Under the pieces are notes generated by a model, which made no database searches, was not told the DNA's origin, and saw only the letters and a program-made list of their open reading frames with translations. A program made the translations under genes and the position numbers. From Thelephora terrestris (taxonomy: Eukaryota > Basidiomycota > Agaricomycetes > Thelephorales > Thelephoraceae): a stretch of DNA of 64,000 nucleotides. The stretch lies in assembly GCA_015956445.1 (NCBI GenBank), contig WIUZ02000005.1, forward strand, positions 1 through 64,000. The letters run 5' to 3'. Positions 16,436-26,450 of this stretch are shown in pieces; position 1 is the first letter of the stretch; every line of letters begins with the position of its first letter.

Positions 16436-18798
16436 GCGAAGGGCTGGAGTTTGAGCCAAGGCGGAGGTTGGGAACGGTGGTATGAGCTTGCCTTGAACTC
16501 ATGTTGTCGGGCCGTCCACGGTCGACCTCACCTTGCCGTTCGTGGAGTCCACCGTGGACCGAGATCCCCCGCAGAGCTTCGCGAATCCGATCTTGTCCAA
16601 CGACGTTCCAGTCCTGTGGGTCTTGGCCAATTAGCTTCCCGTCCCTTTGATATTCATGCGTAAACCACTTACCCCGTCTGTCTCCGGATGAGGGAACGTG
16701 GGAGAGGGCGGCGCGGTGACTTCGATTGTGGGCTGAGCAGTCTGTGAAGAAGAGGTATTGCTGCCCTAGGTCGCGGCGTATTTTTTTGCGGGGTGGGAGG
16801 TAGAGCTTTGTTCTTGGGGATGTCGCTAGCGGCGGAAGTCGATGGAGATGAGGCAGTGTGGGAAGCAGGCTTCTTCGGCGTTGCGTCGTTCCTCGATTCG
16901 GAAACCCTCCTTGTCCCGTTTGTCCTCGACTCCGATGCTTTGACCGTGTAGATCGGTTGACGTCTCGTACAACGGTACTTGCTGTGGCTGGTGAGACCCA
17001 CTGTAGTCCCGGTGTGATGTGCTGCACGTGGTAGAAGATGGAAGGACTCCAACCGAGCTGACGAACCCATCCGATTGAGAGGATTGGCTCCTCGTCATCC
17101 GTGGTGGGAGGTAGAGCTCTGGCTTTGGGAATGCGGCTAGTGGCGGAGGTCGATGGAGATGAGGGAGATGAGGTAGTGTACACTGGGGGCAAGGGGCCAA
17201 ATACCCGGTGGGTACATGCTGAACACATTGTGATCACAGTCAACAAGTGATCACAATGTGCCCAGTGGGGGAAATTTGAATACATTCAAAATGTGCCTGG
17301 CCATGTGAGTCCAATGTGCCCAGTAGGCACATTTTGATTGTGATCACAATGTACCCATTCAATGTGATCTCAATGTGCCCACTGGGGACATTTTGATTGC
17401 GATCACAATGTACACATCAATGTGAACTCAATGTGCCTGCTGTGCACATTTTAATTTCTTTCACAATGTTCCCATCAATGTGTTCCCAATGTACCCAGCT
17501 CATTACATAGTAGTTTCTTTCACAATGTTGTCCACAATGTGTCCAGCATGTGGCTGAGCCACTCATTCAAAATTCTTTCAAAGATTATCCAGTGATGTGT
17601 CCATAATGTCCCCAGGGGGTTCTTTTTGAAGTGATCACAATGAAATCTCAATATTGTTTGATTTCACCATGAACTTTCAAAGAAATCACTATGTGTATGG
17701 CTGTACACATTCTAGACACATTACTGGATACTTTGTGAAAGAAGTTTGAATGAGTGGCTCAGCCACATGCTGGACACATTGTGGACAACATTGTGAAAGA
17801 AACTACTATGTGATGAGCTGGGTACATTGGGAACACATTGATGGGAACATTGTGAAAGAAATTAAAATGTGCACAGCAGGCACATTGAGTTCACATTGAT
17901 GTGTACATTGTGATCGCAATCAAAATGTCCCCAGTGGGCACATTGAGATCACATTGAATGGGTACATTGTGATCACAATCAAAATGTGCCTACTGGGCAC
18001 ATTGGACTCACATGGCCAGGCACAATTTGAATGTATTCAAATTTCCCCCACTGGGCACATTGTGATCACTTGTTAACTGTGATCACAATGTGTTCAGCAT
18101 GTACCCACCAGGTATTTGACCCCTTGCCCCCAGTGGTAGGAAGCGGGCTTCTGCGGTGTCATCGTTCCTCGACTGGGACCCCTCCCTGTCCCGTTCGTCC
18201 TCGACTCCGATGCCTTGACCGGATAAATCGGTCATGTGCTTTACTGGAAAGGCTGGCGATGGGACGACTGTGATCCATTTGGTCATTTTGAGCCTCGCGT
18301 TCCATGTTCTGGAATAAGACGAACCCCCGGTGAGGTTCTTTAGGACCGTGGGCTGGCTGAGCGAAGGGTTCGGAGTGGGATCGGGGGCGGGGTAGTGGTT
18401 GTTGGTGGTTGTATTTTGCTTCGTTCGAGTACAGACTCCTAGACGTCGAATAACCTTGAGATGCCCAGTCACGGCTGGGCAGAGCTTGAGAACGAGATCT
18501 TGAAGTCAAAATCAGGAACCTCACACTCACGAATCTCGGTTGACTTGCTGCTTTTCCCTCACAACCAAACTTCCATCCTCTCGGAAACTGTAGCGGCAAA
18601 ATGGGAACCTCTTGCGGGTGATGAGCTTGATAGAGTCGGGTCAGCAGCGGATCGGGTCTCTTGCGAGTCAACGCTTGCCTTTGAGTACACAAAATACATG
18701 AACGGACTATTGATGGTCCATCGGCCGCGGCTGAAGATGTCGTACTTGAAGCCAGAAGGTGAGCAGTGAAGCCTGAGGACACGGGATGGGACGAACAG
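16436..18798 (-). pseudogene. Proline/serine-rich gene-like unit, copy A, split by a transposon
   Basis: Copy A matches copy B (25364-26450) almost base for base outside two changes: the 955-bp element at 17181-18135 with its 3-bp duplication, and an internal tandem duplication of about 318 bp near 16.85-17.18 kb. Minus-strand coding-like peptides include YDIFSRGRW, NSPFMYFVYS, KASVDSQETRS, TWNARLKMTKWITVVPS and ASDIPKNKALPPTPQK. The pieces occupy different frames, joined by plausible but unproved introns. No family recognised. The insertion would interrupt any product. Confidence 0.5.
17181..18135. mobile_element. 955-bp palindromic (foldback) DNA transposon with CACTG ends and GTA target duplication
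   Basis: The element starts CACTGGGGGCAAGG and ends CCTTGCCCCCAGTG. Its two arms (about 17181-17610 and 17710-18135) are long near-perfect inverted copies around a spacer of about 100 bp. The arms are full of CACATTGTG/CACAATGTG words and TGATCACA palindromes, candidate subterminal transposase-binding sites. GTA flanks both sides (17178-17180 and 18136-18138). The related sequence in copy B (around 25780) and the internal duplicate in copy A near 16860 have no insert, showing the empty site. A 3-bp duplication with CACT-type ends fits the CACTA/CMC superfamily. It has no coding capacity, so it is non-autonomous. Confidence 0.85.
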
Positions 18799-20227: not shown

Positions 20228-21283
20228 GCAGGGTGTTGAAGCACGGTTACGGTCGAGTCCGCGTGGTTGAAGCACGGTGTACTTGAGTCGCTGTTGTGGA
20301 AGCACGGTGCGGTCGAGTCGGCGTCGTGTAAGTGCTGCTTTAATAACGCGTTAGAAAAGGAGCGCGACGTAGCGGCAACATACCGACATCATCAATGCGG
20401 CAACCGCAACGTTTTTTCGTCATCCAACAAGTGCGAGAACACGTCCGTACACTTTGTTCCGATGGTTCGGAGGTACGGCAAACCCCGCGTTGCAAATCTA
20501 CGAGGTCAAGGTTGAGCGTTTTTGGGTTCAAACTGAGACAGCAAGATAACCTGCGATGGCCTGGTTCAGGAGGGAATTCTGTTTCTCGTCGAGATCGACT
20601 CAACTATTAGGAGTGGCCGTGCCAGGTTTGAGGAATGGATCAGGATCGTGCTTCTTGTCGCGAGCGATTTGTCGGTTGGCACGATCCAGGAGGCGTCCGT
20701 AACCTTGTGGAGGTGTACCAGGGCTTTCGTTGAGGGTGCTACCGCGTCGTTGAGCGAAATGACATGTCCGAAGCGACAGAAGCACGATCCGGGTTTCGCG
20801 TGTGTGGTGCCTGTAGGAAGGGGTCGGTGCCGGTGTCGGGAGTCGTGATGGGAGAGTCAGGGAAGAAGTGATTCAAATGTAGACAACGTCAAGGGTGAGG
20901 CGCAGTCAGCCACACGAAGACCGGGACTAGGTTGAAGACATCACCATTGATCGAATGGGGGGAGTTGGCAGCCTAGAGAATCCGGTCAGGGCGGGGAATC
21001 CCAAGTGCTCAGAGTGAGGATGGGGGGACGTACCTGCTATCTGCTGACAGTTTCGGCGACCTCCGCACTAATGGTGAGTTTCATCGCCGCCTAACCAGAG
21101 CCTTCGATAAGTGCCTACGATACGCAGGCCGGGACCATCTGCAGCGACCTCGAGGACCAGGTAGGAGTTGACCTTGAGTCGAATTCATTGAATGGACTTG
21201 AGAGTGGGCTCAAGAGCATTTTCTTGGTGGTGGGGTCGGTGTTGGGAAAGGATCCTCGGAGCGATGGGCGAATTGGAAGGTAG
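20228..21283 (+). repeat. Dispersed repeat R1, copy 2
   Basis: Same family and orientation as 1190-2386, very similar throughout. It lacks the segments noted in copy 1 and ends at the matching GAATTGGAAGGTAGGTG. Confidence 0.75.
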
Positions 21284-25363: not shown

Positions 25364-26450
25364 AGAAACAGAAGGGTTGGAGTTTGAGCCAAGGTTGGGA
25401 ACGGTGGTATGAGCTTGCCTTGAACTCATCGTTGTCGGGCCGTTCACGGTCAACCTCACCTTGCCGTTCGTGGAGTCCACCGTGGACCGAGATCCCCCGC
25501 AGAGCTTCGCGAATCCGATCTTGTCCAACGACGTTACAGTCCTGTGGGTCTTGGCCAATTAGCTTCCCGTCCCTTTGATATTCATGCGTAAACCACTTAC
25601 CCCGTCTGTCTCCGAATGAGGGGACATGGGAGAGGGCGGCGCGGTGACTTCGATTGTGGGCTGAGCAGTCTGTGAAGAAGAGGTATTGCTGCCCTAGGTC
25701 GCGGCGTGTTTTTTGCGGGGTGGGAGGTAGAGCTTTGGTCTTGGGGATGTCGCTAGCGGCGGAAGTCGATGGAGATGAGGCAGTGTGGGAAGCAGGCTTC
25801 TTCGGCGTTGTGTCGTTCCTCGATTGGGAAACCCTCCTTGTCCCGTTCGTCCTCGACTCCGATGCCTTGACCGGATAAATCGGTCATGTGCTTTACTGGA
25901 AAGGCTGGCGATGGGACGACTGTGATCCATTTGGTCATTTTGAGCCTCGCGTTCCATGTTCTGGAATAAGACGAACCCCCGGTGAGGTTCTTTAGGACCG
26001 TGGGCTGGCTGAGCGAAGGGTTCGGAGTGGGATCGGGGGCGGGGTAGTGGTTGTTGGTGGTTGTATTTTGCTTCGTTCGAGTACAGACTCCTAGACGTCG
26101 AATAACCTTGAGATGCCCAGTCACGGCTGGGCAGAGCTTGAGAACGAGATCTTGAAGTCAAAATCAGGAACCTCACACTCACGAATCTCGGTTGACTTGC
26201 TGCTTTTCCCTCACAACCAAACTTCCATCCTCTCGGAAACTGTAGCGGCAAAATGGGAACCTCTTGCGGGTGATGAGCTTGATAGAGTCGGGTCAGCAGC
26301 GGATCGGGTCTCTTGCGAGTCAACGCTTGCCTTTGAGTACACAAAATACATGAACGGACTATTGATGGACCATCGGCCGCGGCTGAAGATGTCGTACTTG
26401 AAGCCAGAAGGTGAGCAGTGAAGCCTGAGGACACGGGATGGGACGAACAG
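25364..26450 (-). CDS. Proline/serine-rich gene-like unit, copy B (unoccupied site)
   Basis: This copy has neither the palindromic element nor the internal 318-bp duplication of copy A; from 25876 to 26450 I saw only about one base difference from 18224-18798. A 246-codon minus-strand frame spans 25694-26434, but peptides that look more like coding sequence (TWNARLKMTKWITVVPS, ASDIPKTKALPPTPQK, YDIFSRGRWSINSPF) lie in other frames separated by likely introns. The match to copy A stops exactly where repeat R1 sequence begins at 26451, so the unit may be truncated. No family recognised; gene status uncertain. Confidence 0.4.

Follow-up and report, generated by a model that had tools for sequence, protein, structure and literature searches.

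Palindromic CACTG-ended elements in Thelephora terrestris: a MITE family with coupled arm evolution in some lineages

The window analysed here, a 64,000-nt stretch forming the start of contig C45 of the Thelephora terrestris assembly (40.6 Mb, 60 contigs), carries a 955-bp palindromic element that belongs to a family with several hundred relatives. In subfamilies A, B and D of this family, private substitutions occurred at mirror positions of the two arms far more often than expected by chance, a new finding that did not extend to subfamily C. These elements are most probably non-autonomous, cut-and-paste palindromic MITEs of the CACTA/EnSpm type, with arms that may at times be copied onto each other. 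Beyond the transposon itself, reported in the initial annotation of the window, the analysis brought out the division into subfamilies, the concerted change of the two arms in some of them and the inverted duplications described below.

Structure and empty sites of the window element

The element spans positions 17181–18135 and is bordered by GTA on both sides (17178–17180 and 18136–18138, forward strand), a duplication without counterpart at the empty sites. Its left arm (17181–17609, forward strand) starts with CACTGGGGGCAAGGGG and its right arm (17707–18135, reverse strand) ends with CCCCTTGCCCCCAGTG. The arms, 429 nt each, are 97% complementary and account for 90% of the element. Between them, inverted-repeat search and folding placed a non-palindromic centre, a 97-nt loop (17610–17706, forward strand). 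When folded as single-stranded DNA, the element reached −539 kcal/mol, compared to −138 kcal/mol (sd 6) for shuffled sequences (n = 20). The near-complete inverted repeat between two GTA copies, as initially annotated, was thus borne out.

The short words in both orientations, whose density the initial annotation called unusual, were confirmed. Counting both strands, CACATTGTG occurred six times in the element (simulated mean 0.20, maximum 3 in 1000 runs) and was absent from the remaining 63,045 bases of the window, whilst TGATCACA occurred 11 times (simulated mean 0.35, maximum 4) and four times elsewhere in the window. Both words sit within tandem 58–59-bp units. In the left arm (17247–17497, forward strand), these subterminal units have a period of 58 bp and 4.3 copies and contain ACATTGTG and TGATCACA words; in the right arm (17774–18013, forward strand), tandem-repeat search returned three overlapping rows of 58–59-bp units. 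The high word density in the arms most likely reflects arrays of subterminal repeats. Subterminal repeats bound by the transposase or a helper protein are a feature of CACTA/EnSpm (CMC) elements, and the 58-bp units and enriched words of the window element occupy subterminal positions, where they may represent binding sites. Elsewhere in the window, one 30-bp tandem unit was found at both 1180–1279 and 20235–20324, 19 kb apart and in differing phases.

Copies lacking the element had been claimed near 25780 and 16860, and both sites matched. The right flank of the element aligned from 25785 (96.7% over 368 positions) and from 16858 (83% over 100 positions), and the two flanks joined via one GTA aligned across both homologous sites with the element absent. 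At both empty sites, located at 25785–25787 in the homologous copy and at 16858–16860 in the nearer and more diverged copy (both forward strand), GTG stands where the target duplication would be and no duplication is present. The first of these sites stems from a local duplication, in which window positions 16701–16957 and 18136–18500 correspond to 25629–26152 with 96–97% identity.

Family members, class assignment and candidate partners

We further investigated the occurrence of the element ends across the genome. With up to one mismatch, the 16-base end CACTGGGGGCAAGGGG was found 444 times in forward and 433 times in reverse orientation, compared to one and two matches for a reversed control pattern; this equates to several hundred relatives and answers the initial proposal to look for further copies with the same ends. 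At least seven subfamilies (A–G, labels of this analysis) were distinguished among the ends examined. Their first 15 bases are nearly common to all, and beyond these the subfamilies share little except ACATTG-like repeats. Individual copies were drawn non-randomly from the top DNA matches, the first places on contigs C1–C3 and incidental copies in transposase loci. Recurring sizes were near 501, 725, 838–840, 871–876, 953–955 and 1366 bp. End-to-end alignment to the element's own reverse complement was obtained for 39/46 short elements and was only partial in 7/46 (repeats, L064 and sizes outside 400–1300 bp were dropped). In short length, high copy number, terminal inverted repeats (TIRs), recurring sizes and lack of a transposase gene, these elements correspond to MITEs.

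Of the short copies with both flanks readable (n = 48), 40 carried an exact 3-bp duplication. Duplications longer than 3 bp, which the initial annotation had named as evidence against its reading, flanked none of the 48. The underlying table holds 49 short rows, including L064, which lies at position 3 without a left flank, and one site held twice (L034/L035). The eight copies without an exact duplication had a one-base difference (L065, L071_1301), inverted flanks (L018, L028) or unrelated flanks (L004, L008, L016, L025). The last four are complete elements with unrelated 3-bp flanks and are possible products of recombination between copies. Six long elements (2.4–10.9 kb) likewise carry a 3-bp duplication. 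The target conforms to W-N-W: across 43 duplicated sites, A or T makes up 90% of the outer positions (strands pooled, giving one number for both positions). For two G-type elements, L030 and L042, the end of the element marks the exact point from which the adjoining sequence resembles related transposon copies (one side read), as an insertion would give.

CACTA elements are reported to start with CACTA or CACTG, to end with TAGTG or CAGTG and to generate 3-bp duplications (PMC10741241), whilst the wider CMCT group is given CA..TG ends and 2–5-bp duplications (PMC12730594). Both traits, CACTG ends and 3-bp duplications, are combined in CNIRT6, an active CACTA element of Cryptococcus neoformans (PMC12810828). 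The CACTG..CAGTG ends and 3-bp duplication of the present family agree with the terminus and duplication of CACTA/EnSpm (CMC) elements. Given that the same combination occurs in CACTA elements and CNIRT6, a CACTA-type transposase probably acts in trans. Since no autonomous partner was found, the assignment to the CACTA/EnSpm superfamily is provisional and follows from the ends and the duplication. The initial reading as a transposon with CACTG ends and a 3-bp duplication is therefore well supported; for its CACTA/CMC attribution, termini and duplication agree and there is fungal precedent, but no transposase gene was found within such ends.

The genome contained 73 profile matches to PF02992 (Transposase_21; all 74 candidates scored) and at least 132 to PF18759 (Plavaka; 123 of 261 candidates scored). 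Transposase matches on the small contigs C48 and C36 mirror those on C12 near 0.99–1.00 Mb and on C3 near 1.27 Mb, respectively, which suggests leftover second haplotypes. By-eye comparison placed no PF02992 match in the six long elements, and no PF18759 match among those listed. None of 27 transposase loci (24 read 1.5 kb each side; L034 and L035 near-identical) showed a CACTG-type pair more than 1.8 kb apart with a 3-bp duplication. Also by eye, none of the listed transposase places was enclosed by the first 100 exact termini listed (C1, C2 and C3 to 1.07 Mb); in the rest of the genome some subfamilies were covered, one pattern completely and another by the first 100 of 174. Among the places examined (by eye, plus the 27 loci), no transposase match was found within matching ends.

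Several long elements were considered as partners and rejected. L013 (9.2 kb) contains a LINE-type retrotransposon with matches to RVT_1, RNase_H and Exo_endo_phos. This retrotransposon (L013 1083–8242) lies inside a C-type element with a 3-bp duplication and has frames of 521 and 1735 aa, the second of which matches endonuclease, reverse transcriptase and RNase H. L011, L012 (4.7 kb) and L014/L061 (10.9 kb) have a common core, and because a 1.4-kb piece of this core also exists as a high-copy repeat in its own right (521 first-look candidates, of which 40 were scored and all 40 matched), these long elements were read as nested insertions. The repeat, to which no class was assigned, occurs at L012:3900–5300 and 39 further scored places and is nested in several long elements. 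In L010 and L011, two stop-to-stop frames each were scanned and gave no Pfam family above the cut-off; one frame of L010 is similar to one found in the repeats that surround L018. The Transposase_21 families of L073/L074 (start CCCAGTGAG) and of the L055 arm (start CCCGGTAAG) were set aside as partners because of these starts; in animals, Transposase_21 (TRC) elements are reported to start with CCC (PMC1636069).

Two other sources of mobility were weighed against a CACTA-type transposase. A PIF/Harbinger-type MITE would likewise make 3-bp duplications, and the A/T at the outer target positions would suit it. The usual Harbinger target is a 3-bp T-W-A or T-N-A, however, and the T-N-A form accounted for just 10 of the 43 duplications; together with the CA..TG ends of the elements, this makes a Harbinger origin very improbable. 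Mobilisation by a Plavaka-type transposase would draw on a source abundant in this genome (the matches include gene pieces) and placed in the same wider CMCT group (PMC12730594). Plavaka ends, however, are published as TGT..ACA with 2-bp or CATCA..TGATG with 2–3-bp duplications, not as the CACTG..CAGTG found here (PMC12730594), and at 12 Plavaka loci, read 1.5 kb each side, no gene was enclosed by a CACTG-type pair with a 3-bp duplication. We consider this route quite unlikely. Under the preferred CACTA-type reading, a CACTG-recognising transposase supplied in trans would bind both the terminus and the 58-bp tandem units of the subterminal regions, and would then excise the element and insert it elsewhere.

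The family resembles several known systems. CNIRT6 shares a TIR starting with CACTG, 3-bp duplications of variable sequence and a fungal host, but is about 7.5 kb long with a transposase and 24-bp TIRs, in contrast to the 429-nt arms of the window element, in which no transposase was seen (PMC12810828). pvCACTA1 of common bean is likewise a CACTA family of small elements in very high abundance, and it too has long TIRs and 3-bp duplications rich in A/T. Its duplications are described as WWW and its TIRs as able to exceed 150 bp, whereas the Thelephora family has W-N-W targets and the arms of the window element make up 90% of its length and consist largely of 58-bp tandem units (PMC4938662). 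EnSpm families of rust fungi also have CAC..GTG ends and 3-bp duplications, but carry a TET/JBP gene as well as a transposase gene and, in the available text of that source, are not described as palindromic MITEs (PMC12730594). In the open-licence PMC literature, no title among those listed matched palindromic or CACTA-type fungal MITEs, and the two papers containing the terminal 11-mer were unrelated by title. The Thelephora family is set apart from its known relatives in being nearly all arm, largely of tandem units, and in the concerted evolution of its arms in some lineages.

Arm-to-arm coupling and inverted duplications

To quantify coupling, states present in exactly two arms were scored across 15 A, 6 B, 8 C-size and 3 D elements, and the fraction falling on both arms of one element was compared to a chance model in which arm pairs were drawn at random and relatedness was ignored. 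In A, 26/38 two-arm states were shared by one element's own arms (expected 1.3), and in B, 20/22 (expected 2.0). All 143 such states in D lay within one element (expected 28.6), in a group of just three very different elements. Subfamily C displayed no clear coupling (3/13, expected 0.9, P = 0.05). A loop-oriented recount of mirrored states gave 26, 21 and 3 for A, B and C, versus 26, 20 and 3.

Coupling was episodic and confined to certain lineages, as few A and C arms were nearest to their own partner (A 6/30, C 0/16; B 10/12, D 6/6) and two elements, L021_301 and L023, supplied 18/26 mirrored A states. Arm-specific differences were retained in 86/120 cells in A, 171/208 in C and 25/54 in B, and the arms of C differed more within elements (0.089) than between them (0.079).

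Changes in length followed a related pattern. The lengths of A elements include 836–837, 953–955 and 1068–1069 bp, roughly two 58-bp units apart. With the window element as reference (a ninth row, L068_2056, was left out as belonging to another subfamily), equal changes in both arms were observed in 4/8 A-type variants (L017 +58/+58, L019 −59/−59, L070 −58/−58, L021_2998 −24/−24), and one-sided or unmatched changes in the other four (L007, L016, L021_1855, L066). All four equal changes were offset from the exact mirror position, by 4 to 35 nt. Within the tandem units, mirroring is therefore approximate, and the units themselves may explain the offset.

The central loop was homologous among the tested copies of A (15) and B (6), which places the mirrored changes later than the founding palindrome. 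One arm may at times be copied onto the other, through inter-arm gene conversion or through repair on a fold-back (hairpin) template. Such copying would keep the element palindromic while the number of 58-bp units changed on both sides.

Two elements lacked a target duplication and lay exactly between mirror-image flanks: L018 (C1:201797–202667), an 871-bp D-type element, and L028 (C1:3989367–3990091), a 725-bp B-type element. A 300-bp flank of L018 was found solely in its two mirror copies, whilst that of L028 was found in its own two copies and two diverged matches (83% and 72%). Within C1:192235–212230 (L053, L054), the flanking arms of L018 are 100% identical over about 1.49 kb, beyond which they enter inverted repeats with a 64–94% match per 100 columns and further copies within the same 20 kb. 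L028 forms the centre of a 12.9-kb near-perfect palindrome (C1:3983272–3996186; L055, L056) with outer ends CCCGGTAAG and no matching duplication. Its flanks match across 6.1 kb with two differences, both outside the element, and the outer flanks differ. The flank start, CCCGGTAAG, resembles the start CCCAGTGAG of the Transposase_21 transposon in L073, and each arm contains a 948-aa Transposase_21 frame scoring about at the family cut-off. Both duplications have the pattern that hairpin-templated fold-back repair would be expected to leave. In yeast, hairpins give rise to fold-back inversions, most of which are resolved by homology (PMC7467729). The likeness lies in a hairpin-forming sequence central to an inverted duplication, with resolution mostly at homologous repeats. 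The yeast inversions are rearrangements in a test system and involve no transposon family (PMC7467729), whereas the Thelephora cases were deduced from assembled sequence.

Two alternatives bear on how these palindromes arose. Palindromes may have been founded anew many times, with different parent elements each giving a MITE by inverted duplication of one end and no later exchange between arms. Repeated founding would account for subfamilies that share about the first 15 bases and little more and yet are end-to-end palindromes in 39/46 cases, and for three D-type elements that differ strongly from one another. The loop, homologous across the A (15) and B (6) copies tested, however, points to one palindromic ancestor per group with mirrored private changes arising later, and we regard repeated founding as improbable. 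For the two inverted duplications, assembly error is a serious possibility, if somewhat short of an even chance. Palindromes can mislead assembly, a self-complementary repeat here joining two haplotypes head to head; contigs C48 and C36 look like duplicates of segments of C12 and C3, and the missing target duplication at L018 and L028 would be expected under this explanation as well. The passage of the L018 arms into inverted repeats at 64–94% match, and the two differences between the L028 arms with their unlike outer flanks, speak against it, although a joining error would be compatible with both.

We tentatively propose, as a doubtful extension of arm copying, that fold-back copying recurs and actively renews palindromy, and that its overrun past the element end produces large flanking inverted duplications. 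If true, the MITE would be both the product and the seed of hairpin-templated repair. To our knowledge, the origin and upkeep of near-perfect palindromic MITEs is not settled. With several hundred members, separately changed lineages and equal changes in repeat number, the Thelephora family offers a natural series for counting arm-to-arm copying, together with two candidate cases in which one hairpin may have duplicated neighbouring DNA.
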